Origin: Spirochaetaceae bacterium
GTDB taxonomy: Bacteria > Spirochaetota > Spirochaetia > B11-G9
Length of the DNA: 33,787 bases
Reading direction: 5' to 3'
Assembly (NCBI GenBank): GCA_030638735.1
Contig: DAOWEB010000101.1
Span: 1-33,787 of the forward strand
Part shown: positions 220 through 26,027 of the stretch, one piece after another
How positions within the stretch are numbered: the first letter of the stretch is position 1
How the letters are laid out: each line of letters opens with the position of its first letter
Position numbers and translations under genes: made by a program
Notes under the pieces: generated by a model
The model's database searches: none
Seen by the model: only the letters and a program-made list of their open reading frames with translations
What the model was told of the DNA's origin: nothing

Positions 220-2349
220 ATGAATATACGGCCAAAACTTGTACTCCTGCAGCTGGCAGCTGTAACTGGATTTATTATAGCTCTCTCAGTAATTTTTTTC
301 TATTCCCAATCAATTATTAAACAGAAAAACTTTCAAATACATTCAGAAAAGGTTCTTGCAGGGGTAGAGCAGATTAAATCCAGGCTTGATAGGGTTATGG
401 TTTCAAATGTTGATCTTTTTGATCAAAAATCTGATATTATTGATTCTGTAAATAGTTTTGGTATTCTCTTTAATCAATTCAGAGATAAATCAATACAAAA
501 AGTTATTCCTGAAAAAGATGCTTTAATATTATCCAAACTTACTGAAAGGTGGATAGATATATATGAAACCTCTTTTCTTTCTCTTTTTAGTCAAATGGAC
601 AGGATTATTGTTAACCCCTATTCTGAGTCAGAGGGAAGCAGTGAGTTAATAAGAATTCGTTATAAAATGGTAGATGATGGAGATTTTGATAATGATTTTT
701 TAAAGGAAATTTTTCAGCTTGAAGGAAGTCTTAGATTTGTGGGTATTAATACCTATACTTTTATAACAGATCTGGAAAATGAATTGGTGTTACTTAGTGA
801 GTACACTTCGAAATCTATTACCCGTAGTATGATATTGGCGGTTAGTATTTCTATAATTACTGTTATATTCAGTATTCTGATTATAACTATTTTTTCCAGA
901 CGAATGGGATCGCGTATTATTCAGATTCGAGATGCAATTCAATCCTTATCAATGGGTGATTTTTCAAGGGAATTAGATATAAAATCCGGAGATGAGTTCG
1001 AAAATTTTTCAAATCATTACAATGTTTTTAAAAATGAACTTTGGGAAAAACTGGAATCTGTACTGGATTTTATGCTTGAAATCAGCGGGTCTATCTCTAT
1101 AGAGAGTAACCTTGACAGAGTTCTTGAAATAGTAATTGACTCTGCCGTTAAAAATACAACTGCAGATGCAGGATCAGTATTTTTAGTTGATGAAAATGAT
1201 GATTCAATGATTAAACAGAATATAGCTATTGGCTTGCTACCTCCTCTTTTTTATGTTCCCCCTGAGTATGCCAATAATATGGATAAGCTGGTTGAACTGG
1301 TTTTAAATACACCAATTTTGACAGGTGAAACTATTATTGGCAAAGCAGTTGAAACAGGGGGTAATTTTTTTATTAGAGATGTTCTGACTGAAGAAGATAT
1401 GGAACAAAATCAGAAAGAAGGATCTCTTCTGTTTATCAGCTCTATCATGGTTGTTCCACTTATTATTGGAGGTAGAGTTCTTGGTACATTGGTACTTTCG
1501 AAAAACAGACCAGGAGAAAAATTTACAGATATTGATTTTAATCATATTAGAACCTTTAGTGATTATGCGGCATTAACTATTGATAATATATATAATTACC
1601 ATGATCTGATTGAGAAGAGTGAACTCCATAGGGAAATACGAATTGCAGCGGATATCCAAAAGAATCTGCTGCCGGGAACTATTCCGGATACAAAAGGTTT
1701 ATCTTTTGCAGCTTTTACAGAGGCTGCAAGAGGTGTAAGTGGTGATTATTATGATTTTTTTAGATTGGATAAGGATAAATCAGCAATAATTATATGTGAT
1801 GTTGTAGGTAAAGGAGTTCCGGCCTCTTTGCTTATGATAATGATTAGAACTATTATCAGGCTGGCTGCTTCTCCCAGAAGGGATGCAGCTCAAATACTGA
1901 CTATACTAAACAAAGCTATTATAGGCAGAACTGAAGCCGATCAGTTTGCTACAATGAGTTTTATTATTTATGATGAATCAAAAAAGGAGTTGGCATATTC
2001 AAATGCTGCTCATGCACCACTTCTACATTATCGAAGTAAATCGGGAACTTTTCTTGAAATAGATACACCGGGACTTCCTATTGGAATTGAGAGTTCTGTT
2101 AAATATGAACAAAAAATTATTACTCTTGAAAAGGATGATATTCTTGCCCTCTATACTGATGGAATTACAGAAGCAAGGAACAGAATTCATAAAGAGTATT
2201 CCCAGTTTTCTCTTCAGCGCGTATTAAAGAATGAAGCCAGAATGAAACCAGCAAAAATAATTGACTCTTTAAGAACAGATCTTAAAACTTTTGTCGGTGA
2301 TTCCAGGCAGCATGATGATCAGACCTTACTGATTCTGAAGGCGGTATAA
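220..2349 (+). CDS. Membrane PP2C-family (SpoIIE/RsbU) serine phosphatase with HAMP and GAF domains
   Basis: N-terminal TM segments, HAMP-like region, GAF-like segment, C-terminal SpoIIE motifs (SGDYYDFFRLD, DVVGKGVPASLLM, LYTDGITEARN, HDDQTLLIL). Confidence 0.9.
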   Translation: MNIRPKLVLLQLAAVTGFIIALSVIFFYSQSIIKQKNFQIHSEKVLAGVEQIKSRLDRVMVSNVDLFDQKSDIIDSVNSFGILFNQFRDKSIQKVIPEKDALILSKLTERWIDIYETSFLSLFSQMDRIIVNPYSESEGSSELIRIRYKMVDDGDFDNDFLKEIFQLEGSLRFVGINTYTFITDLENELVLLSEYTSKSITRSMILAVSISIITVIFSILIITIFSRRMGSRIIQIRDAIQSLSMGDFSRELDIKSGDEFENFSNHYNVFKNELWEKLESVLDFMLEISGSISIESNLDRVLEIVIDSAVKNTTADAGSVFLVDENDDSMIKQNIAIGLLPPLFYVPPEYANNMDKLVELVLNTPILTGETIIGKAVETGGNFFIRDVLTEEDMEQNQKEGSLLFISSIMVVPLIIGGRVLGTLVLSKNRPGEKFTDIDFNHIRTFSDYAALTIDNIYNYHDLIEKSELHREIRIAADIQKNLLPGTIPDTKGLSFAAFTEAARGVSGDYYDFFRLDKDKSAIIICDVVGKGVPASLLMIMIRTIIRLAASPRRDAAQILTILNKAIIGRTEADQFATMSFIIYDESKKELAYSNAAHAPLLHYRSKSGTFLEIDTPGLPIGIESSVKYEQKIITLEKDDILALYTDGITEARNRIHKEYSQFSLQRVLKNEARMKPAKIIDSLRTDLKTFVGDSRQHDDQTLLILKAV

Positions 2350-2354
2350 TGTCC

Positions 2355-3521
2355 CTACTGAAACAAAAGAGACAGTGTTATTATGTTTAGATCTGTATCG
2401 GTTATTTGATCCATATGTGAATCAAAAAAGATCTGTTGTTCTTTACAGGCTTCCTGCATATATGACAGATAATGCATTCCAAGATCAGAATTAAATTCGT
2501 CTTCTGATTTTTCCTGATAGAAGTCAATAAGTGATGTTTTATTTATATCAACATTTTTTTGATCAGTAATTTTCTGTTTTAACTTTTTATATTCATTGTC
2601 CTTGTTGTATATCATTATCTGAAGTTTATTATCAGTTCCTATCGAATTTGCCGTGCCTCTGATTTTCCATGATAGAGTAAGAAATTCATTTCTACTTTCT
2701 AAAAATCGTATAAGCTCATTTCGTATAGTTGTATTATGAATAATTCTGCCAAAATCAATTTTATCTTTGTACAATCTTTTTGATAGTTTTTTTAATTGAC
2801 TGATTTCTGCATTTATAGCAAACTCCATTATCATCAATGAAAGGTATTCTGCAATTTTTGATTTCTCCAGATATTTTCTAAGTGTATTTACAATATCTTT
2901 ATGAAGCTGATTGTAATCCTGGTTTCCCTGTGATACGGAGAGTATGTACCATATTAATGAATTTAGAGAATCAAGGAACTTTTTACCTGTCTGTTTGGTT
3001 TTAGTTATTTCTTCACCAGTAAGATCCTCAAGCCCTGGAATAGAGCTAAGTGAGCTTATAATTATTTTATATTTAATCTGATCAATCATTTCATTATTTA
3101 AAGAAGGAATTTTCCCAATAAAGATATTACTTAGTATTGAGTTTTCATCCAGTATATTAGTTGGATTTGATCTGTTCCAACTACTTACAAAGGATGACTC
3201 CATGAATCTTTTTGTAATTATTTTAGAGAACCGGCGGTAAAGTATTCCATAGAATATTAGTTTTGAAATATCCATTATTTCACTGCGTTTTGCTGTAAAT
3301 GCAGTTCTTGATAACTCTATCCGGGAAACATAATTGGCAATTATCATATTTTGAATAGAAGGAGCTGAAAATTCCTCCAGGCTCATTCCGTAGGCAAGGG
3401 TATTATTTGATAATCTCTTTTTGATAAGTTTTTTATTATGATTTCTGAAGAATGAAACACCTTCATCTGTAAAAGTAATTATTAGAGGCAGTGAAATATT
3501 TGACCTCTTCTTTTCACTCAT
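2355..3521 (-). CDS. Uncharacterised 388-aa protein, third gene of the STAS / RsbW-like operon
   Basis: Long ORF overlapping the upstream ATPase gene as TAATG; no family recognised with certainty. Confidence 0.8.
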   Translation of the reverse strand: MSEKKRSNISLPLIITFTDEGVSFFRNHNKKLIKKRLSNNTLAYGMSLEEFSAPSIQNMIIANYVSRIELSRTAFTAKRSEIMDISKLIFYGILYRRFSKIITKRFMESSFVSSWNRSNPTNILDENSILSNIFIGKIPSLNNEMIDQIKYKIIISSLSSIPGLEDLTGEEITKTKQTGKKFLDSLNSLIWYILSVSQGNQDYNQLHKDIVNTLRKYLEKSKIAEYLSLMIMEFAINAEISQLKKLSKRLYKDKIDFGRIIHNTTIRNELIRFLESRNEFLTLSWKIRGTANSIGTDNKLQIMIYNKDNEYKKLKQKITDQKNVDINKTSLIDFYQEKSEDEFNSDLGMHYLSYMQEACKEQQIFFDSHMDQITDTDLNIITLSLLFQ

Positions 3522-4081
3522 TAGCTACCTGTTTGGTTTAGATCTATACCATGTTTCTTTTTTTCAAAGTTCTTATAGACCGCAATACAATTTTTTTTAC
3601 TATTAAAAACTACACCGCCATCCCAATACTCAAGGGTAGCAAATAATGCATTTCCACCATCATTTTCATCACTCTTATCTGTTCTGTATGCAAAATACTT
3701 TTCCATGGCATCAAAGTCCTGGTTTTCAAAGCATTCGCTTCTTTTTTTATTGAACTCATTCCAATCTTCAAGCTGCTGGAAGCCTTCACCCTCATCTTCA
3801 ACTATTACATGAGCAAAGCTGGTATCGAAAGCAGCCCATATTCTGACTTTTTTATTAATATCTTTATTATTTCCATGTTTTACAGCGTTTTTAATTAACT
3901 CACTAATTTGTTGTTCAAGTAAATTGATCTCTTTTATCTCTGGTGGGGCCTTTTGAACAATAACCATTGAAAAGAATCTTACCTGGCGAAAATCAGATTG
4001 AAATTCTTTGAAAAATAAACCATCTTTTTTGAGAAGTTTATTTTTATCATCTATAATAATTTCTTTATGGTCAAATAACAT
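3521..4081 (-). CDS. RsbW-like HATPase_c_2 anti-sigma factor / serine kinase
   Basis: N-box-like ISELIKNAVKHGN, VIVEDEGEGF, and DENDGGNALFATLEYWDGGVVF. Confidence 0.8.
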   Translation of the reverse strand: MLFDHKEIIIDDKNKLLKKDGLFFKEFQSDFRQVRFFSMVIVQKAPPEIKEINLLEQQISELIKNAVKHGNNKDINKKVRIWAAFDTSFAHVIVEDEGEGFQQLEDWNEFNKKRSECFENQDFDAMEKYFAYRTDKSDENDGGNALFATLEYWDGGVVFNSKKNCIAVYKNFEKKKHGIDLNQTGS

Positions 4082-9047: not shown

Positions 9048-10613
9048 TTAACTTACCTGCTTCAATACACTGAATATATGTAATGGTTTATCTTTACCTT
9101 TTACTTTGACTGGCTTCAGTTCCTTTAACTTAAAATGATCACCTATCAGGTCCCTTGTTTGCTGTGTGATAATTACTTCGCCCGCACCTGCAACTCCTTC
9201 GAGTCTGGCTGCAATATTTACAGTATCCCCGATAACGGAGTAATCCATTCTCCGTGAACTTCCCAGATTCCCGGAAATTAGAGGGCCGCTGTGCATACCG
9301 ATTCCTACCTGCAGGTGCTCTGCTTTTCCATGGAAGAATTTACGACTTTTAGATTTTACCAGTTCCTGAATTTCAACAGCGCATCCAACACCGGATATTG
9401 CATCTTTATCTACATTCACGACAGGTACGCCCCATGCTGCCATAATACAGTCCCCGATAAACTTATCAATATACCCGTTATACTTAATAACTATTTCTAC
9501 TGCCTCACTAAAGTATTCGTTTAGAATTTCAATGATGTATTCAGGTTCCTGCCCTTCACTGAATGAGGTATAACCTCGAATGTCTGCAAAGAAAACAGTT
9601 GCATCTTTTTTACTTCCTCCCAACTGTACAAGTTCAGGTGATTCCATGAGGTTTTTAAGTACATCTGCAGACATATATCTTGCAAACATGTCTTTAACTA
9701 TTCTCCTTTCTTCTACTGCCATGTTTGCTTTCTGCTTAAGTTCCTGCTCTCTGGACTGATCTGTAAAGAGGAGAGTCAGGCCTTCATGTTTTCCTAAACG
9801 TCCCTTTAAAGGAGAGATATTCAGGGCAAAATCCATTTCCCTGTTTTCACCTTTGTATATACCTTCAAGTCCGAGGATCTCTTTGTGGGAGTCAGCTGTA
9901 GATGTTATTTCCTTCAATATTTTTTTATTGAGTTGTTTTTTGAAAAATGCCTCGAAATCATTTCCAATAATATCCTTATTCATCCCCAGTCTTTCGGCAG
10001 CTGCCTGATTAAAATAATGAATATTCCCTTTTTCATCGGTGGTAATTAATAGGTTGGTCATGGAGCTGAAGATACTTTCCTGATATCTTTGGAGTGATTC
10101 AATTTCTTTCAGTTTCTGTTTGACTTCCTGAAATAACTCAACATTATGAACCATCCCTCCGGAAAGTTTTGTAAATGCATCCAGAAAGTGGAGCCTGTTT
10201 TTTCCGTAATAATCTATTTTTTTGGAATTAAGCACAAGTATTCCAATTTTTCGCTTTGCAGTATTCAGGGGGAGTACTATGGCACTGTTCATTTTTTTAT
10301 TTAAAAGACTTTCTTTAAAAAACTGATCTTCCCTGGAATGAATAATCAAAGCCTCTCCACAGTCTTCCATAAACTGCACAAGGCTTGATTCCCTGGAAAA
10401 GGATGGTTGTATTTCATATTTCCCACGTTTAAAAATCATTTTAAGTGGAGTTTGTTTTATATTTTCTACAGGATAGGCATATAGAGCACCTATTTCAGAT
10501 TTACTAATGTCCTGTGCCTGCTCCACCAGAATTGAAATAAGAGAAGCTCGGCTTTGATCTGTCGTTAGAAGGGCACTGGCTCTAACCAGTTCCTCTATAG
10601 TGGCTATACCCAC
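9048..10613 (-). CDS. GAF-PAS class III adenylate/guanylate cyclase
   Basis: VFFADIRGYTSFSE, YIDKFIGDCIMAAWG, MDYSVIGDTVNIAARLE; N-terminal GAF-like and central PAS-like segment. Confidence 0.92.
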   Translation of the reverse strand: MGIATIEELVRASALLTTDQSRASLISILVEQAQDISKSEIGALYAYPVENIKQTPLKMIFKRGKYEIQPSFSRESSLVQFMEDCGEALIIHSREDQFFKESLLNKKMNSAIVLPLNTAKRKIGILVLNSKKIDYYGKNRLHFLDAFTKLSGGMVHNVELFQEVKQKLKEIESLQRYQESIFSSMTNLLITTDEKGNIHYFNQAAAERLGMNKDIIGNDFEAFFKKQLNKKILKEITSTADSHKEILGLEGIYKGENREMDFALNISPLKGRLGKHEGLTLLFTDQSREQELKQKANMAVEERRIVKDMFARYMSADVLKNLMESPELVQLGGSKKDATVFFADIRGYTSFSEGQEPEYIIEILNEYFSEAVEIVIKYNGYIDKFIGDCIMAAWGVPVVNVDKDAISGVGCAVEIQELVKSKSRKFFHGKAEHLQVGIGMHSGPLISGNLGSSRRMDYSVIGDTVNIAARLEGVAGAGEVIITQQTRDLIGDHFKLKELKPVKVKGKDKPLHIFSVLKQVS

Positions 10614-10738: not shown

Positions 10739-10810
10739 AAAAGTAATTTACTTGACTTTAACATAAAACTATCTGACTATATAATAATAGTTACTTATAA
10801 GGAGGCATAT

Positions 10811-11179
10811 ATGAACTTTCTTATTGTTGATGATTCCGGAGTAATGAGAAGAATTCACAAAAATATCTTATTGGATAATAAAATTGATGAATCTCAGATA
10901 TTTGAAGCTGAAAATGGTGAAGTTGCTGTTAAAATTGCTGAAAAGGAAAATATTGGTCTTTTTTTACTCGATTGGAATATGCCTAAACTTGATGGTTTGA
11001 AATTTGTTCAGATTATACGATCCATTGAGAGATATGAAGATACTCCCATAATTATGATCACTTCAGAAGCTGCGAAATATAATGTTGTTGATGCAATTAC
11101 TGCAGGTGTTACTAATTATGTAGTTAAACCCATTAAAGGGGATATCTTATGGGAAAAAATCAGCAGGTATGTTAAATGA
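10811..11179 (+). CDS. cheY: CheY-like single-domain response regulator
   Basis: Receiver fold: IVDDSGVMRR, LLDWNMPKLDGL, MITSEA, VVKPI. RBS AAGGAGG upstream. Confidence 0.92.
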   Translation: MNFLIVDDSGVMRRIHKNILLDNKIDESQIFEAENGEVAVKIAEKENIGLFLLDWNMPKLDGLKFVQIIRSIERYEDTPIIMITSEAAKYNVVDAITAGVTNYVVKPIKGDILWEKISRYVK

Positions 11180-11637
11180 AAGCAAAATATATTAACCCTT
11201 TTATTTCTGCAACAATGAATTTGTTTAAAGATTATTTAGAGCTTGAAGTGGAAAGTGGAACCCCATATGTGCTGGAAGATCCTCAGGCTCTGGATGAAGT
11301 CTCAGGAATTATTGGTCTTGCCGGAGAAACTACAGGATCCGTAGTTCTTAGTTTTTCAAGAGATACTGCTATAAAAATTATATCAAAATTTGCAGGGCAT
11401 CCATATCAGGCTCTGGGAAGTGATGTTCTTGATGGTGTAGGGGAACTAATTAATATAGTTGCCGGAAATGCAAAAAAAGATCTTATAGATTTTAAAATAG
11501 TAATATCTTTACCTGGTGTTATCACAGGAAATGATTATCGTATTCACTGGCCTGAACAGGTTCCGGTTATATCTGTTCCGTTTTCTACTTCAGCAGGAGA
11601 TTTTACCCTTAATGTATCTCTAAGAGATGCAGAATAA
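11176..11637 (+). CDS. cheX: CheX-like (CheC/CheX family) CheY-P phosphatase
   Basis: MKAKYINPFISATMNLFK start; DVLDGVGELINIVAGNAKKDL matches the CheX E-x2-N catalytic motif. ATGA overlap with cheY. Confidence 0.88.
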   Translation: MKAKYINPFISATMNLFKDYLELEVESGTPYVLEDPQALDEVSGIIGLAGETTGSVVLSFSRDTAIKIISKFAGHPYQALGSDVLDGVGELINIVAGNAKKDLIDFKIVISLPGVITGNDYRIHWPEQVPVISVPFSTSAGDFTLNVSLRDAE

Positions 11638-11639
11638 AG

Positions 11640-13856
11640 ATGTTTTCAATTAGATTTAAGGTTGTATTGACAATAATTCTGGTTTTACTGGCAACCATAT
11701 CAATCTCAATATTTCTCACTGTGTCTAATCAGCAGAGCAGTCTTCTTTCAGCTATGAGAAATAATCTTACTGTTAATAATGGTATTCTTAATACGGTAAT
11801 AAAAAATATAATGCTTAGTGGTGAAGCCCCTATAGCTAATAAAACTATGTCAGATTTAAAGGCAATGCAGGAGTTTGAAGAGATCGAAATTTATCGTATT
11901 GACGGGACTGTTGCTTTTAATGATTATTCCACAGTGGAAGCTGTAAACAACTTTCAGGATAAAATTATGTTTAGCGAAACTCCCCGTTCAGAATTAAAAA
12001 TGATAGATGATCCTAATTTTCAGAAGGTTCTTGAATCGAATACTCCAAGGTATGTTGAATTGTTGGATTCCAGGGAAGTGGAATATTTTTTCCCAATTTT
12101 AAATCTTCCCGACTGTAGAACCTGTCATGGTACAGAATCATTTGTCAGGGGAGTTGCACATTACAAGGTTTCTGTAGATGAAATATTTGAACAAATAAAT
12201 AGTTCCCGCAATATGCTGACAGTATTTTTTCTAATTACCGGTTCAGTTATTTCTTTTATACTTATCTGGATGATGCAGAGGATTGTAGTTAAACCGGTAA
12301 TATTACTTGGGAGTGTTGTTACTAAAGTTGGTAACGGTAATCTGGATATCAGGACTAATATAAAGTCTAATGATGAACTGGGATTACTTGGGACTAAGTT
12401 AAACGAAATGATATCCGGATTAAAGGAAAAAAGAGGTCTGGAACTTGAAAATATAGAGATTGAGACCAGGAACAGGGAAAATAAAAAGTATCTTGATAAC
12501 ATTAATGAAGGGCTTCTTTTATTAAATCAGGACCTGACTATCTCAAAACAATATTCCAGATTTGTTACTGTTCTTTTTAATCAGCAACAAATAACAGGTT
12601 TAAAACTTTCTGAATTTATATATCCTGATTCAGATTTATTTCAGGAAGAAAGAAAAGAACTTGATCAGTTTGTAAAAATGGTGTTTGAGAAAATCAAGAC
12701 AGATATGGAGATGATTCTAAGTATTAATCCTTTGTTTAATAAAAAAATTCAGGTAACTGATTCTGAAGGGAATAGATCTAATATAATTATTGATGCTCAT
12801 TTTCAACGTATTTTTAATAAGGATAAAGTTGAAAATGTTATGGTTATATTTGAAGATAGAACTAAAATTATTAATATTGAACTGGAGCTGGAAGAAGCCA
12901 GAAAGAAAAGTCAAAGTGAACTTGAGCAGATTGCCGTAATATTAAAAGCTGGTCCGGATTCTTTCCTTGAATTTGTACAGGATGCAGAAAGTAATATTAC
13001 TGAGTCTATGTCTGATCTGGAATCTATTAATCTTCCTGAATCTCTTGCCCGGATATTAAGGAATCTTCACTCTTTAAAAGGTTCTGCAAGGTATATGGAT
13101 TTAAAGCTTATAGCAGACAAGGTTCATGAAACAGAAGGCCTTATAATTGATTTTGGAGATCGTGGATCAGAGCCCAAAAATCAGGTTATAATTAGTCAGC
13201 GTTTAGAAGATATAAATATTGAGTTGGAAAGAATAAAAGATATTACCAGAAGGTTCAGTAGTTTTGGTGAATCTTCCGGTATAGGACACAGATCAAAAAT
13301 CGAACAATTTTTTGAGACTTTAAAGAATATGGTTGAAAAAATTGCAGAAGAACTTGGTAAAGATGTAGTTCTTGTAACCGGGAGCAATATTGAAGACTTC
13401 CCTTATCTGAGAGAGATGAGAGATCCTGTTATACATCTTATCAGGAATTCTATAGATCATGGTGTAGAGGATAGTTTTGAACGTCTCTCAGCTGGAAAAA
13501 ATAAAACCGCAAGTATAAAACTGGAAATTGGAATTCTTCAAGATGGACAATATCAGGTATTTTTATCTGATGACGGGCGTGGTATCAATTTTAATTCTGT
13601 ACGTAAAAGTGCAATAGAAAAGGAGTTAATTGATGATTCCGAAATTTCAAATCACCAGCTGGCTGAACTTTTATTTTCTTCCAGTTTCAGCACAAGAACT
13701 AAAGTCAGTTCAATTTCCGGCAGGGGAGTAGGGTTGGATGTGGTCTCTGATGTAGTAAAAACATTAAACGGAACAATTTCAATTGCAACTACTCAGGATA
13801 AAGGTACTAAATTTACTATTAAACTGCCGGCAGAGAAAAGTGATCAATTGGAGTAA
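11640..13856 (+). CDS. Transmembrane CheA-like hybrid histidine kinase: CxxCH sensor domain - HAMP - PAS - Hpt - HATPase
   Basis: TM start; extracytoplasmic CRTCH (12114-12128); second TM then HAMP; Hpt motif LHSLKGSARYMDL (His at 13068-13070); CheA-type HATPase DPVIHLIRNSIDHGVE and SGRGVGLDVVSDVV. Ends soon after the HATPase. Confidence 0.88.
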   Translation: MFSIRFKVVLTIILVLLATISISIFLTVSNQQSSLLSAMRNNLTVNNGILNTVIKNIMLSGEAPIANKTMSDLKAMQEFEEIEIYRIDGTVAFNDYSTVEAVNNFQDKIMFSETPRSELKMIDDPNFQKVLESNTPRYVELLDSREVEYFFPILNLPDCRTCHGTESFVRGVAHYKVSVDEIFEQINSSRNMLTVFFLITGSVISFILIWMMQRIVVKPVILLGSVVTKVGNGNLDIRTNIKSNDELGLLGTKLNEMISGLKEKRGLELENIEIETRNRENKKYLDNINEGLLLLNQDLTISKQYSRFVTVLFNQQQITGLKLSEFIYPDSDLFQEERKELDQFVKMVFEKIKTDMEMILSINPLFNKKIQVTDSEGNRSNIIIDAHFQRIFNKDKVENVMVIFEDRTKIINIELELEEARKKSQSELEQIAVILKAGPDSFLEFVQDAESNITESMSDLESINLPESLARILRNLHSLKGSARYMDLKLIADKVHETEGLIIDFGDRGSEPKNQVIISQRLEDINIELERIKDITRRFSSFGESSGIGHRSKIEQFFETLKNMVEKIAEELGKDVVLVTGSNIEDFPYLREMRDPVIHLIRNSIDHGVEDSFERLSAGKNKTASIKLEIGILQDGQYQVFLSDDGRGINFNSVRKSAIEKELIDDSEISNHQLAELLFSSSFSTRTKVSSISGRGVGLDVVSDVVKTLNGTISIATTQDKGTKFTIKLPAEKSDQLE

Positions 13857-13863
13857 ATATAAA

Positions 13864-14367
13864 ATGAAAATAATAATCCTTTTTGTAATGATCATAATAA
13901 TTAGTGCCTGTTCAAAACCAGAAGAACAATCTACAACTGCTTTAGTTCTATCTGAGATAAATGGTGCAGTCTTATGGGAAAGAATTTCGACAGAAGCTGA
14001 GTATAAAACATACGCTTTCTGGCCTGATCATGAGGATATACAACCAGGGCAGTCTCCTCATGGTGCCTATCATAAAATTTATATTAATAAGGTTCTTTCT
14101 GAAGCCCTCCCTTCCATGGATAAAGTTCTTCCTGAAGGTTCTATAATTGTTAAGGAAAATCTGGATTCTCAAAAATCTCTGGATGCAATAACAGTAATGG
14201 TGAAAGTTAAGGACTATAATCCTGAAGCTGGCGATTGGTTTTGGGCAAAATATACTCCTCTGGGTGAAATCCTTGCTGAAGGAACCCCGGTCGGCTGTAT
14301 CAGTTGTCATCAGGGAATGGATGATAATGATTACATTATCGTCCGTCCATTAGACCTTGAAATATAA
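13864..14367 (+). CDS. Lipoprotein with CxxCH heme motif, cytochrome P460-like
   Basis: Lipobox MKIIILFVMIIIISAC; GCISCHQGMDDNDYI (CxxCH at 14296-14310). ATG at 13864 preferred over the 13783 ORF start, which would overlap the kinase gene. Confidence 0.72.
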   Translation: MKIIILFVMIIIISACSKPEEQSTTALVLSEINGAVLWERISTEAEYKTYAFWPDHEDIQPGQSPHGAYHKIYINKVLSEALPSMDKVLPEGSIIVKENLDSQKSLDAITVMVKVKDYNPEAGDWFWAKYTPLGEILAEGTPVGCISCHQGMDDNDYIIVRPLDLEI

Positions 14368-14369
14368 GC

Positions 14370-14750
14370 TTAATTATTATTGAGCCATGATATTAATTCT
14401 CTGTCGATACCCTCTTCATCCCCGGTGTTCAATACAAGAAGTCTTCTTAAATGTGTAATAGAATCTACGTCAGCACCTTCAAATCTGAAACCTAAAAAAG
14501 TATCTTTCTGATGGACAATTTTAGCTTCAAATTCAAGTGTTATAATTGAATACGGCAGTTTGAGCATTACATGACATTTTTTTCCGGAAGATGGCATTAG
14601 TTTTTTATTCATTTTTATCAGGGCGCCCTTTAGAGCAATGTCGTAAAGCTCCCCGGTAAATACTTTATCATCTATTTTAGCTGCTGCCTCTACATGAAAA
14701 TTTATGCGCTTATAGTAGCGTTTGTTTTCCATAAAAACCTCTTTGAACAA
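14370..14750 (-). CDS. PilZ-domain protein (putative c-di-GMP receptor)
   Basis: ENKRYYKRINFHVEAAAKI (RxxxR-like) followed by LYDIALKGALIKM (D/NxSxxG-like, degenerate), ending in FLGFRFEG. Confidence 0.75.
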   Translation of the reverse strand: MFKEVFMENKRYYKRINFHVEAAAKIDDKVFTGELYDIALKGALIKMNKKLMPSSGKKCHVMLKLPYSIITLEFEAKIVHQKDTFLGFRFEGADVDSITHLRRLLVLNTGDEEGIDRELISWLNNN

Positions 14751-14884: not shown

Positions 14885-15580
14885 ATGGAAAATATTAAAG
14901 TGTTATCAGTGGGTGGGTCAATTGTGGCACCCGATAAGGTCGATACTGTTTTTGTTGGTAATTTTAAACAGGCCATCCTTGATTATCTTAACGAAGATCC
15001 AAATCGAAGACTGGTATTTGTTGTAGGTGGCGGTGGTCCGGCACGTTCCTACCAGAAAGCATACAGAGAAATCGTTGAAAATCCTGATATGGACTCTCAG
15101 GACTGGATAGGTATAATGGCTACCCGTTTAAACGGTGAGCTTCTTAAAGGTGTATTTGGTGATGAATGTCCTGATCCTGTTGTAACCAATCCTACAGCAG
15201 TTAAGAGTTTTAAGGGGCGGATTTTAGTGGCTGCCGGATGGAAACCGGGATTTTCCACAGATAATGACTCTGTACTCCTTGCAGAGAATATTGGTGCAGA
15301 TACAGTAATCAATCTATCTAACATAAAAAAAGTGTATTCTGCAGATCCAAAACTGGATCCAAATGCAGTGCCTTTAGACCGTATCAGCTGGGCAGAAATG
15401 AGGAAACTTGTAGGTGATAAATGGGTTCCTGGTGTTAATGTTCCTTTTGATCCGGTTGCAACAAAGAGAGCATCAGAATTGAAATTAAAGGTTATAACAG
15501 CAGCGGGAAATAATATTGAAAATATGAAAAAAATACTTGTAGGATCTGACTTTGTGGGAACTACAATAGGACCGGAATAA
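14885..15580 (+). CDS. pyrH: Archaeal-type UMP kinase (amino acid kinase superfamily)
   Basis: VLSVGGSIVAP, VFVVGGGGPARSYQKA, AAGWKPGFSTDNDSVLLAENIGADTVINLSNIKKVYSADPK. Confidence 0.82.
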   Translation: MENIKVLSVGGSIVAPDKVDTVFVGNFKQAILDYLNEDPNRRLVFVVGGGGPARSYQKAYREIVENPDMDSQDWIGIMATRLNGELLKGVFGDECPDPVVTNPTAVKSFKGRILVAAGWKPGFSTDNDSVLLAENIGADTVINLSNIKKVYSADPKLDPNAVPLDRISWAEMRKLVGDKWVPGVNVPFDPVATKRASELKLKVITAAGNNIENMKKILVGSDFVGTTIGPE

Positions 15581-17421
15581 TGGAAAGAAAATTAAATTTT
15601 CTCGATGTGTTCAGTATTGCCTCCGGATCGATGATAAGTTCCGGTATATTTGTTCTTCCTGCCATTGCATATAGTCATACGGGATCTTCCCTTTTTATTT
15701 CCTACCTTATAGGTGGCGTAATTGCTCTAATAGGAATTCTGAGTATTGCAGAACTTTCGAGTGCAATGCCCAAGGCTGGTGGAGACTATTATTTTATCTC
15801 CAGAAGCTTTGGTCCATTAATGGGAACAATAAATGGTTTTCTAAGCTGGTTTGCCCTTTCTTTAAAAAGTGCATTTGCAATTTATGGTTTATCCGGAGTT
15901 ATGTATATTCTTACAGGGATTAGTATGCCCCTTACTGCAGTTCTTGCAACCATATTTTTTGTACTGCTGAATATAGTTGGTGTTAAAGAGGCTGCATTGC
16001 TGGAGTTAATACTTGTTGCATTTTTAATATCTATAATGATTGCTTATATTATTATGGGTTTTCCTGTAATAAACATGGCTCATTTTGATCCATTTGCTCC
16101 CATGGGAATAAACTCAATACTTTCTACTGCAGGTTTCGTATTTATATCTTTTGGAGGATTACTTAAAATAGCCAGTATTGCAGAAGAAGTTAAAAATCCC
16201 GGAAAAAATATTCCCCTTGGTATGCTTGCTTCTGTAATTATTGTCACCATTTTATATGTACTTATGATTTTTATAACTACAGGTATTCTTTCTCCAGATG
16301 AATTTAAAGCATCAATACTTCCTATATCTGATGCAGCTTTTATTTTTGCAGGCAGACCTGGTTTTATTGCAATTACTATTGCTTCTTTTCTTGCTTTTAT
16401 TACTACTGCCAATGCCGGGATTATGGCTGCATCCAGGTATCCATTGGCTTTGAGCAGAGATAATTTAATTCCATCCGGTATTTCCAAAGTTTCAAAGCGT
16501 TTTAATACACCTGTAATTTCAATACTTGTAACAGGTGTATTTATTATCCTGAGTCTTCAGATTGATCTTGAAATATTGGTTAAATCAGCATCTTCAGTAA
16601 TTCTAATTGCATATATTCTTTCAAATATTTCTGTAATTATTCTTAGAGAAAGTAAGCTGTCAAATTACAGACCTGTATTTAAAGTACCCTTATATCCGTA
16701 CATTCCAATTCTAAGTATAGGAATGTATTTGTTCCTTCTAATTGATTTAGGATTGGAAGCAGTAGAAATTAGTCTTGTATTCATTGTTATCAGTATTCTT
16801 GTCTATTTATTTTATGGTAGGAAGAGATCGAAAAAAGAATTTGCACTTTTATATCTTCTTAAAAGGATAATTGACAGTAGAATGCCTCAGCATGGTCTTG
16901 AAACAGAACTTCGCGAAGTTCTTCGTCACAGAGAGGGAATACTGGATGATAAATTTGACCGGATGGTAAAGGACTCTGTTGTTCTGGATCTTGAGGGACA
17001 TTTAACTTTAGATGGTTTTTTTAATGAGATTTCAGATCCCCTTGGTTCTGATCTTGAGATGGAAAGTGAAAAAATATTCAGACTTTTAAAAGACAGAGAA
17101 AATGAAAGTTCAACTGCAATTAGTTCTTTTGTATCTATTCCTCATATAATTCTTAAAGAAACTAAAGTTCTCCATATGATGATAGTAAGGTGTCGGGATG
17201 GTGTTAGTTTTTCTGAATCAGAAAAATCTGTAAAGGCAATTTTTCTGATTGTAGGTAATGAGGGTGAGCGGGTTCTTCATCTAAGACTGCTTGCCTCTAT
17301 TGCTACTTTGGTTCAGGAGAAGGGGTTTGAAGAAAACTGGTTGAATGCAAAGGATATAAACCATCTTCGGGATATGATTTTACTCAGCAGCAGAAAACGA
17401 TTCCCAAAAAGAGGGAAATAA
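15580..17421 (+). CDS. APC-superfamily amino acid permease with C-terminal PTS EIIA (type 2)-like domain
   Basis: N-terminal APC motif (ASGSMISSGIFVLPAIAY) and about 12 TM helices; soluble tail includes SFVSIPHIILKETKVLHMMIVRCRDGVSFSESEKSVKAIFLIVGNEGERVLHLRLLASIATLVQ, an EIIA/PtsN-like pattern with the IPH histidine (17143-17145). Confidence 0.85.
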   Translation: MERKLNFLDVFSIASGSMISSGIFVLPAIAYSHTGSSLFISYLIGGVIALIGILSIAELSSAMPKAGGDYYFISRSFGPLMGTINGFLSWFALSLKSAFAIYGLSGVMYILTGISMPLTAVLATIFFVLLNIVGVKEAALLELILVAFLISIMIAYIIMGFPVINMAHFDPFAPMGINSILSTAGFVFISFGGLLKIASIAEEVKNPGKNIPLGMLASVIIVTILYVLMIFITTGILSPDEFKASILPISDAAFIFAGRPGFIAITIASFLAFITTANAGIMAASRYPLALSRDNLIPSGISKVSKRFNTPVISILVTGVFIILSLQIDLEILVKSASSVILIAYILSNISVIILRESKLSNYRPVFKVPLYPYIPILSIGMYLFLLIDLGLEAVEISLVFIVISILVYLFYGRKRSKKEFALLYLLKRIIDSRMPQHGLETELREVLRHREGILDDKFDRMVKDSVVLDLEGHLTLDGFFNEISDPLGSDLEMESEKIFRLLKDRENESSTAISSFVSIPHIILKETKVLHMMIVRCRDGVSFSESEKSVKAIFLIVGNEGERVLHLRLLASIATLVQEKGFEENWLNAKDINHLRDMILLSSRKRFPKRGK

Positions 17422-24809: not shown

Positions 24810-26027
24810 ATGAAAACAAGAACATTTATTTCAACCGGGCATTTGATAGATTCAGGCATTATGTCCGAAATATTTAATACCATTATGAATGAGGGTGCTG
24901 ATTATGAAGTTACTTCTTTTAATATTGGTAAGAGGAAAAGTGAAAAATCCAGGCTTGAGTTGATACTTAAGTGTGAGGATTTGGAAAAACTTGAAATTCT
25001 CTCCAGCCAGTTGACCTCTCTTGGTGCATACGAGAAGGGTGCAATAGAATCAGTTTTTAAACCGGCAGAAAAAGACAGTAATGTGCCTGAGGATTTTTAC
25101 TCTACATCAAACCACCGTACAGAGATTTTTTTAAATGGGAAGTGGGCAAATGTAAGTTTCCAGAGAATGGATGCAGTTATAGTTCTTAAAGAGTCTGGAC
25201 CTGGTTGTGTTAAATTAAGAGATGTAAGGAAGGGGGATCGTATACTTTGCGGTTCTGAATCTGTTCGTGTTTTTCCACCGGTTTCTGACATAAGAGACTC
25301 CGGATTTGGTTTTATGTCAAATGATGTTTCCTCAGAAAGAAGTGATAACATTGCAGTTATAAAAATAGCAGATGAGCTTAAATTGTTAAAAAAAGAGGGT
25401 AAAAAAGCTATTGTTGTAGCAGGTCCTGTTGTTATACATACCGGTGGCGGCAGTGCTCTTGCCGGTTTAGTCAGAGATGGCTGGATTCACGGTCTTTTAG
25501 GTGGAAATGCTATTGCTGTTCACGATATTGAATCCTGCTTCTATGGTACCTCTTTAGGTGTGGATCTGGAGACAGGAAAACAGGCTGTTGGCGGGCATTA
25601 TCATCATATGCGGGCAATAAACAGAGTAAATCATTATGGTTCCATTAAAAATACTGTAGAAGCGGGCGCACTAAAATGTGGACTTATGTATGAAATTGTA
25701 AAGGCAGATATACCCTATAGTCTGGCAGGTTCCATAAGAGATGATGGTCCATTACCTGAAACAGAAATGGATATGATAAAAGCCCAGGCAGCATATTCAG
25801 AAATAATAAAAGCTACAGACATGATTATAATGCTCTCTACAATGCTTCATTCAATAGGAACAGGTAATATGACTCCCTCCTGGGTAAAAACAGTTTGTGT
25901 GGATATTAATCCATCTGTTGTAACCAAGCTTTCCGACAGGGGTACCAGTCAGGCTGTGGGTATTGTAAGTGATGTTGGATTATTTTTAAGGGCTCTTGCT
26001 ACAAGATTGGGGGTTGATCACCAGTAA
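24810..26027 (+). CDS. TIGR00300 / LOR-SDH domain protein (ArgZ/ornithine cyclodeaminase-like)
   Basis: Whole-length resemblance to TIGR00300: VVAGPVVIHTGGGSALAGLVRDGWIHGLLGGNAIAVHDIE, VDINPSVVTKLSDRGTSQAVGIVSDVGLFL. Confidence 0.82.
   Translation: MKTRTFISTGHLIDSGIMSEIFNTIMNEGADYEVTSFNIGKRKSEKSRLELILKCEDLEKLEILSSQLTSLGAYEKGAIESVFKPAEKDSNVPEDFYSTSNHRTEIFLNGKWANVSFQRMDAVIVLKESGPGCVKLRDVRKGDRILCGSESVRVFPPVSDIRDSGFGFMSNDVSSERSDNIAVIKIADELKLLKKEGKKAIVVAGPVVIHTGGGSALAGLVRDGWIHGLLGGNAIAVHDIESCFYGTSLGVDLETGKQAVGGHYHHMRAINRVNHYGSIKNTVEAGALKCGLMYEIVKADIPYSLAGSIRDDGPLPETEMDMIKAQAAYSEIIKATDMIIMLSTMLHSIGTGNMTPSWVKTVCVDINPSVVTKLSDRGTSQAVGIVSDVGLFLRALATRLGVDHQ

Follow-up and report, generated by a model that had tools for sequence, protein, structure and literature searches.

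A possible array-independent, chemotaxis-type relay built from a heme-c receptor-kinase and a P460-family lipoprotein in spirochaetes

We analysed a stretch of DNA of 33,787 nucleotides (hereafter the window), which is a contig of a spirochaete metagenome-assembled genome (MAG; Spirochaetaceae bacterium, assembly GCA_030638735.1, contig DAOWEB010000101.1). It contains four tightly packed open reading frames (ORFs) on the plus strand, which may form a chemotaxis-like pathway that works without a receptor array:

10811-11179, plus strand: CheY-like single receiver (PF00072 Response_reg, E 4e-24)
11176-11637, plus strand: CheX-type phosphatase of phosphorylated CheY (PF13690, E 2e-23)
11640-13856, plus strand: transmembrane receptor-kinase, 738 amino acids (aa) (Pfam HAMP, Hpt, HATPase_c; predicted model)
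13864-14367, plus strand: P460-family c-heme lipoprotein, 167 aa (PF16694 Cytochrome_P460, E 4e-13)

The cheY and cheX genes overlap by 4 bases, and the gaps that follow measure 2 bases (cheX to kinase) and 7 bases (kinase to lipoprotein). A GGAGG sequence is located upstream of cheY, and a promoter scan returned TTAACA-16-TATAAT at 10758-10785, 5' of cheY, with a regional count of such sites not above that in shuffled sequences. An Rfam search gave zero matches. A sequence-only reading made before this work had proposed the set of CheY, CheX, a CxxCH-containing transmembrane CheA chimera and a CxxCH lipoprotein with P460-like sequence. All four ORFs are present as proposed and are supported by Pfam, and PF16694 together with a CISCH motif bears out the character of the lipoprotein. 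Its start had to be corrected: the gene begins at the ATG at 13864 (167 aa) and not with the longer ORF that opens at a TTG.

Conservation was assessed in 395 sampled genomes of the class, of which 54 contain the sensor domain of the kinase; 47 sensor loci were inspected, 15 of which encode kinases. The kinase of the window is composed of the following elements:

11736-12173, plus strand: sCache_heme-like extracytoplasmic sensor domain, aa 33-178 (AlphaFold2 model, Foldseek, profile match)
11811-11813, plus strand: Met58, candidate distal/axial heme ligand (invariant in 47/47; weak alignment to the Met60 position of GSU0582)
12114-12128, plus strand: CRTCH heme-c attachment motif, aa 159-163 (CxxCH invariant in 47/47)
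12279-12425, plus strand: HAMP domain, aa 214-262 (PF00672, E 9e-8; in all 15 relatives)
12507-12857, plus strand: PAS-like domain, aa 290-406 (AlphaFold2 model; PAS_9 in 3/15 relatives)
12954-13277, plus strand: Hpt (P1-like) four-helix domain, aa 439-546 (PF01627, E 4e-7, Pfam aa 453-525; helices in the model)
13068-13070, plus strand: His477 (HSLKG), predicted phosphorylation site (14/14 relatives reaching the position)
13296-13829, plus strand: CheA P4-type ATP-binding domain with N, G1 and G2 boxes, aa 553-730 (Foldseek, NCBIfam; Pfam HATPase_c aa 597-732)

The AlphaFold2 model of the kinase (predicted local distance difference test, pLDDT, 76) runs from a first transmembrane helix (TM1) through the Cache domain, TM2, HAMP, a coiled coil, a PAS fold, a second coiled coil and four Hpt helices to P4. 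This is the order that the sequence-only reading had given, with the PAS domain taken from the model and from 3 of the 15 relatives, as it has no Pfam match in the window kinase. Foldseek aligned the kinase to the P4 domain of CheA (1i58) with an E-value of 1e-14 at 40% identity, and the NCBIfam CheA model matches aa 561-731 (E 6e-43). Every relative that extends far enough retains His477 and the N, G1 and G2 boxes. At the catalytic step the kinase should, judging from these matches, act like CheA. The chain terminates directly past the HATPase domain.

The operon is not a local coincidence. CheX lies immediately upstream of the kinase in 15/15 kinase loci and CheY accompanies it in 14/15, the remaining locus (G091) stopping at the contig edge. 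P460 adjoins the kinase in each of the 13 loci whose contig reaches that far; in genome G004 the downstream fragment, located on another contig, also carries P460. Kinase and CheX, with CheY and P460 where the contig reaches, recur in 14 additional genomes, with identities of 40-82%. Because of this recurrence, chance co-location of the four genes was rejected: the neighbourhood survey reveals a conserved family in 15 spirochaete genomes. The nearest named relative, with 82% identity across the whole kinase, is found on a contig of Spirochaetia bacterium isolate GH26, and a scan of named genomes with the kinase alignment returned spirochaete MAGs and Breznakiella homolactica. The gene parts, their order and their conservation are solid.

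Compared to the F classes, ACF and Tfp types of CheA, the window kinase shares the Hpt phosphodonor, the CheA-type P4 and the CheY and CheX encoded alongside, but it lacks P3 and P5/CheW and owns a transmembrane receptor. In agreement with the proposed lack of a CheW-like domain, neither CheW (P5) nor H-kinase_dim (P3) gave a Pfam match in any of the 15 kinases, and the model passes from the Hpt helices straight to P4 without a P3 between them. As P3 is poorly conserved, a very reduced form of it may exist. P3 and P5/CheW were present in all 13,673 sequences of a CheA survey (PMC10542144), such that the window kinase, having no match to either, is not a CheA by the definition of that survey. 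Since P3 was not found, the dimer interface is probably provided by HAMP and the coiled coil. From the missing P3 and P5 we strongly infer that the kinase is independent of the receptor array. A literature search for CheA-like kinases without CheW found no precedent.

The sensor domain was modelled with AlphaFold2 from 47 sequences (pLDDT 85). The model has a strand-helix(CxxCH)-strand order, in which the insert between beta3 and beta4 of an extracytoplasmic Cache fold carries the CxxCH. Foldseek matched it to GSU0935 (3b42, E 6e-6), GSU0582 (3b47, E 1e-4) and Tll0287 (5b82, E 0.04), and a profile made from the sensor domains of seven homologues reached GSU0582 (PDB 3b47) with an E-value of 0.002. 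The window kinase has no match to Pfam PF11845 (Tll0287-like) and none to Mcp40H-20_sensor, and its relatives match both weakly (26/47, best E 4e-5, and 37/47, respectively). Membership as a plain Pfam DUF3365 protein was hence rejected and the domain was assigned by fold and motif. The fold and profile matches, together with the weak or missing Pfam matches, mark the domain as a divergent member of the sCache_heme family, GSU0935/Tll0287-like, which supports at sequence level the heme-c sensor that had been proposed. With the receptors GSU0935 and GSU0582 (DUF3365/Tll0287, PF11845) it has in common a CxxCH Cache/PAS-like domain between two transmembrane helices, the HAMP domain and the fold. 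Known sCache_heme fusions include class III cyclases, HisKA kinases, methyl-accepting chemotaxis proteins and GGDEF/EAL proteins (PMC12889525). The window subfamily differs by its divergence, by its fusion to Hpt and CheA P4, and by its pairing with a P460 lipoprotein; the main text of that preprint mentions neither CheA nor P460 nor spirochaetes.

The partner lipoprotein shows the following conserved positions:

13909-13911, plus strand: lipobox Cys16 (invariant in 41/41)
14152-14154, plus strand: Lys97, at the alignment position of the Lys that cross-links the heme in Nitrosomonas sp. P460, Lys106 (invariant in 41/41)
14296-14310, plus strand: CISCH heme-c attachment motif, aa 145-149 (CxxCH in 40/40 lipoproteins reaching the position)

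Pairing of sensor and P460 extends beyond the kinases. Class III cyclase fusions account for 28 of the 47 sensor loci, and P460 is adjacent in 27 of these, the remaining locus being cut. Using a P460 profile built from the sensor neighbours, we detected P460 in 52 genomes out of the 395; the sensor is also present in 49 of the 52 (Fisher p 5e-53, a statistic that ignores kinship). The sensor tree consists of two deep clades. The kinase clade also includes three cyclase fusions and an HD-GYP fusion, which shows that the output domain changed within it. The P460 tree has the identical deepest split, cyclase loci of the kinase clade included, and in these three cyclase loci P460 precedes the sensor gene instead of following it. 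In pairwise comparison, the identities of the sensors rise with those of the P460 proteins (Spearman coefficient 0.85), in part from shared ancestry. Since the deepest splits match even where the output was swapped, the partnership is, as judged from the trees, older than the choice of output. Co-occurrence and the common deepest split despite the output swap make the lipoprotein look like a part of the receptor, and it is probably a functional partner of the sensor. A literature search for sCache_heme together with P460 found no precedent. The component families as such are known; their combination and the P460 partnership are without precedent in the literature searched.

Sensor and kinase in one chain, a CheY and a CheX of their own and a second heme lipoprotein suggest a one-piece, array-independent chemotaxis-type relay, for which we see slightly better than even chances. 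In this relay the lipid-anchored, P460-fold c-heme lipoprotein would act jointly with the kinase's sCache_heme domain to read, on the outer side of the inner membrane, either NO (nitric oxide) or the redox state. The axial Met58 would be displaced by NO or by oxidation, and the signal would run from TM2 over HAMP to PAS, thereby controlling phosphorylation of His477 by the CheA-type P4. Dimerisation through HAMP and the coiled coil would take the place of CheA P3 and the CheW array. The phosphate would then pass from His477 to the dedicated CheY, with CheX as the off-switch that removes it. The likeliest target of phosphorylated CheY would be the flagellar switch FliM/FliN, such that the pathway would feed the motor parallel to the canonical array. 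Heme loading, ligand, phosphotransfer, the physical sensor-P460 partnership and the CheY target are the elements that we infer. Loading of both proteins with heme is very probable; as ResB-CcsA (System II cytochrome c maturation) is present in the window genome, c-type heme can be made. More tentatively, a bipartite two-heme periplasmic receptor, with the P460-fold lipoprotein as gas- or redox-sensing co-receptor of the sCache_heme domain, may have been kept as its output was exchanged between class III cyclase and the CheA-type kinase that comes with CheY-CheX, alongside a spirochaete family of array-free receptor-kinases with exchangeable inputs.

Several observations weigh against this interpretation. 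The genome contains a canonical cheA-cheW-cheX-cheY operon as well (at C345), so that the CheY of the window need not reach the motor. In relatives with a soluble input (L044, L150) the kinase module lies upstream of genes that by eye look like SpoIIE, HATPase and STAS proteins. An HD-GYP-fused sensor (G042, L042) has no neighbouring P460, although a P460 gene is located on another contig (C84). Furthermore, none of 30 sensor loci from a second phylum, in a sample centred on a Desulfamplus MAG genome (G398), has P460 within a flank of about 1.5 kb. Not every such sensor therefore needs P460, and the second-phylum loci led us to reject the idea that P460 accompanies all heme-c Cache receptors; the sensors there are mostly found on proteins resembling ordinary kinases. 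Gene adjacency is also no proof of physical contact between sensor and P460, and the correspondence of Met58 to Met60 depends on a weak alignment.

Whether the relay ends at the motor is the point at which the strongest alternative enters. The same receptor-kinase could drive a non-flagellar pathway built from chemotaxis parts, in which phosphorylated CheY acts on a partner-switch phosphatase, a cyclase such as the divergent upstream GAF-PAS-cyclase, or another effector. The soluble-input relatives just mentioned hint at such non-motor outputs. In addition, sister sensor loci drive cyclases, the canonical motor CheY is separate, and a divergent cyclase (9048-10613) adjoins the operon in the window and in G004. 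This cyclase is, however, missing in G001. FliM/FliN are also present in 21 of 22 genomes with a kinase relative, the exception being 73% complete, and CheY retains E. coli-like residues near Tyr106. The earlier proposal of a CheY with a dedicated CheX phosphatase is well founded at the level of motifs. The stand-alone CheY keeps the DD, DWNMP (phosphoacceptor Asp), TSEA (Thr/Ser) and KP (Lys) motifs and has a Tyr at the position of E. coli Tyr106 in the subfamily alignment; its best PDB matches are H. pylori CheY (3h1g, E 1e-24) and E. coli CheY. The ExxN motif of CheX reads GELIN, and ExxN occurs in 25/25 aligned CheX proteins of the kinase family and also in the canonical CheX. The window genome encodes FliM and FliN, and FliM has LSQDEIDALL near its N-terminus. 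This N-terminus, MSDGSLSQDEIDALL, is presumably the CheY-binding peptide. CheW was detected in 20/20 tested genomes with a kinase relative, and further CheA genes of the window genome are located at C421 and C8. The canonical operon resembles that of the window in its CheX-CheY pair serving a CheA-type kinase; it differs in consisting of separate paralogues and in using CheW. Overall we place the motor as target of the window CheY at about even, with non-motor targets nearly as likely, and the non-flagellar pathway as a whole remains a serious contender somewhat short of even.

Regarding the signal, the sequence-only reading had named redox state, O2 or NO. O2 appears least likely among these, since for the characterised signalling-type sCache_heme protein tight NO binding and no stable O2 complex were reported (preprint of 2026, PMC12889525). 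NO or redox as the signal we judge to be about an even call. In the profile alignment to 3b47, Met58 falls on a Met of GSU0582 that is residue 60 by our own count from His143. As this alignment segment is weak by itself, we only propose that Met58 is an axial ligand equivalent to the Geobacter Met60, which is displaceable by redox change and by NO in Geobacter sensors, GSU0935 included (PMC8396549). Possibly, though with some doubt, the receptor reads the redox potential of an electron carrier or quinone pool and not NO; its Met-ligated heme would be redox-switched, with the P460-like lipoprotein as donor or acceptor. Geobacter homologues do change their ligand with redox state (PMC8396549). 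The invariance of Met58 fits as well, and the partner cytochrome might carry electrons. A P460 heme, however, has a distal side open to ligands and a Lys cross-link, which suit it badly to electron transfer. Moreover, the signalling-type sCache_heme protein that has been studied behaves like an NO sensor (PMC12889525).

A less probable alternative concerns the lipoprotein, which might be an ordinary enzyme of NO or hydroxylamine detoxification or oxidation that is co-regulated with the sensor and stands outside the receptor. In its favour, oxidation of hydroxylamine is known for some P460 proteins (PMC11928373), Lys97 does not vary, and a second, weaker P460 match distant from the sensor exists in G004, G001 and G006. 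The lipoprotein profile matches cytochrome c'-beta (7ead, E 6e-12) and P460 (6amg, E 2e-4). At the position of the distal carboxylate (Ala131/Glu96) 38 of 41 lipoproteins have Thr or Ser, mostly Thr, and one has Asp; the carboxylate tied to hydroxylamine oxidation is thus missing in 40/41. NsP460, which has Ala at this position, carries the Lys cross-link and does not oxidise hydroxylamine (PMC11928373). In addition, the pairing with the sensor persists through output swaps and reversal of the gene order, which speaks against a mere enzyme. A role in ligand binding rather than catalysis fits the residue pattern best. With cytochromes P460 and c'-beta the protein shares the PF16694 fold, CxxCH and the position of the cross-linking Lys (the residue only), but here it is a lipoprotein, genetically tied to a signalling receptor and without the distal carboxylate in 40/41. 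In a P460 review (PMC11928373), a word search covering sensor, lipoprotein and spirochaetes gave no mention of a role of this kind.

That the kinase is a degenerate CheA which still joins the chemoreceptor array via other CheA/CheW proteins is very improbable: canonical CheA and CheW are indeed present in these genomes, but 15/15 kinases have no P5/CheW or P3 match and bring their own receptor, HAMP and PAS.

The array-independent relay appears to be one version of a wider scheme, in that the CheY-CheX-kinase core is, from its sequence contexts, a module taking several inputs. By eye, the PAS-Hpt-P4 core together with CheX, and mostly CheY, stands behind ammonium-transporter-like domains in five genomes (G019, G033, G053, G054, G057). 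Such Amt-type fusions are candidates for an ammonium-sensing version of the relay. The core further occurs behind multi-transmembrane inputs (G057, L151 and L153 of Breznakiella homolactica) and with a soluble N-terminus (G041, L150). Ks-Amt5, an Amt-fused sensor histidine kinase (PMC5764959), likewise joins receptor and kinase in one chain, and Amt-input relatives of the window kinase exist; the window kinase differs in using Hpt/P4 and CheY-CheX. The text of the Ks-Amt5 paper mentions neither CheA, Hpt, CheY nor spirochaetes.

The surveyed CheAs depend on separate chemoreceptors, while the window kinase joins receptor, Hpt and CheA-type catalysis without CheW. A conserved receptor-kinase of this kind would be a natural test of the purpose of the array: inputs with and without an array, perhaps feeding the same motor, could be set side by side for their gain, adaptation and cooperativity.

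A number of minor observations concern the relatives and the surroundings of the operon. Loci L046, L047, L049, L050 and L051 combine an ammonium-transporter-like domain and a PAS-Hpt-CheA-type kinase with CheX (mostly also CheY) as neighbours; at the Amt-type locus L048 (G014) neither CheX nor CheY was found in the stretch read. At L044 and L150 one of the SpoIIE/HATPase/STAS-looking proteins has the N-terminal region of the kinase (FFWKYKG...ATNENL). Three sensor-cyclase and P460 clusters (L041 in G006, L101 in G125, L094 in G231) include or directly adjoin genes for ResB and CcsA, as though equipped with a cytochrome c maturation of their own. The divergent GAF-PAS-class III cyclase beside the operon (9048-10613, minus strand), kept in G004 and absent in G001, belongs to the type of cyclase to which other spirochaetes have the heme sensor fused. 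Convergent to the operon lies a PilZ-domain protein (14370-14732, minus strand), which is kept in G001. Near the start of the window a GAF-SpoIIE phosphatase (220-2349, plus strand) and an anti-sigma-like HATPase_c_2 protein (3521-4081, minus strand) represent parts of the partner-switch type. Further downstream, an amino acid permease with a PTS EIIA_2 domain at its C-terminus (15580-17421, plus strand) and an ArgZ-like arginine dihydrolase/LOR-SDH domain protein (24810-26027, plus strand) are encoded.

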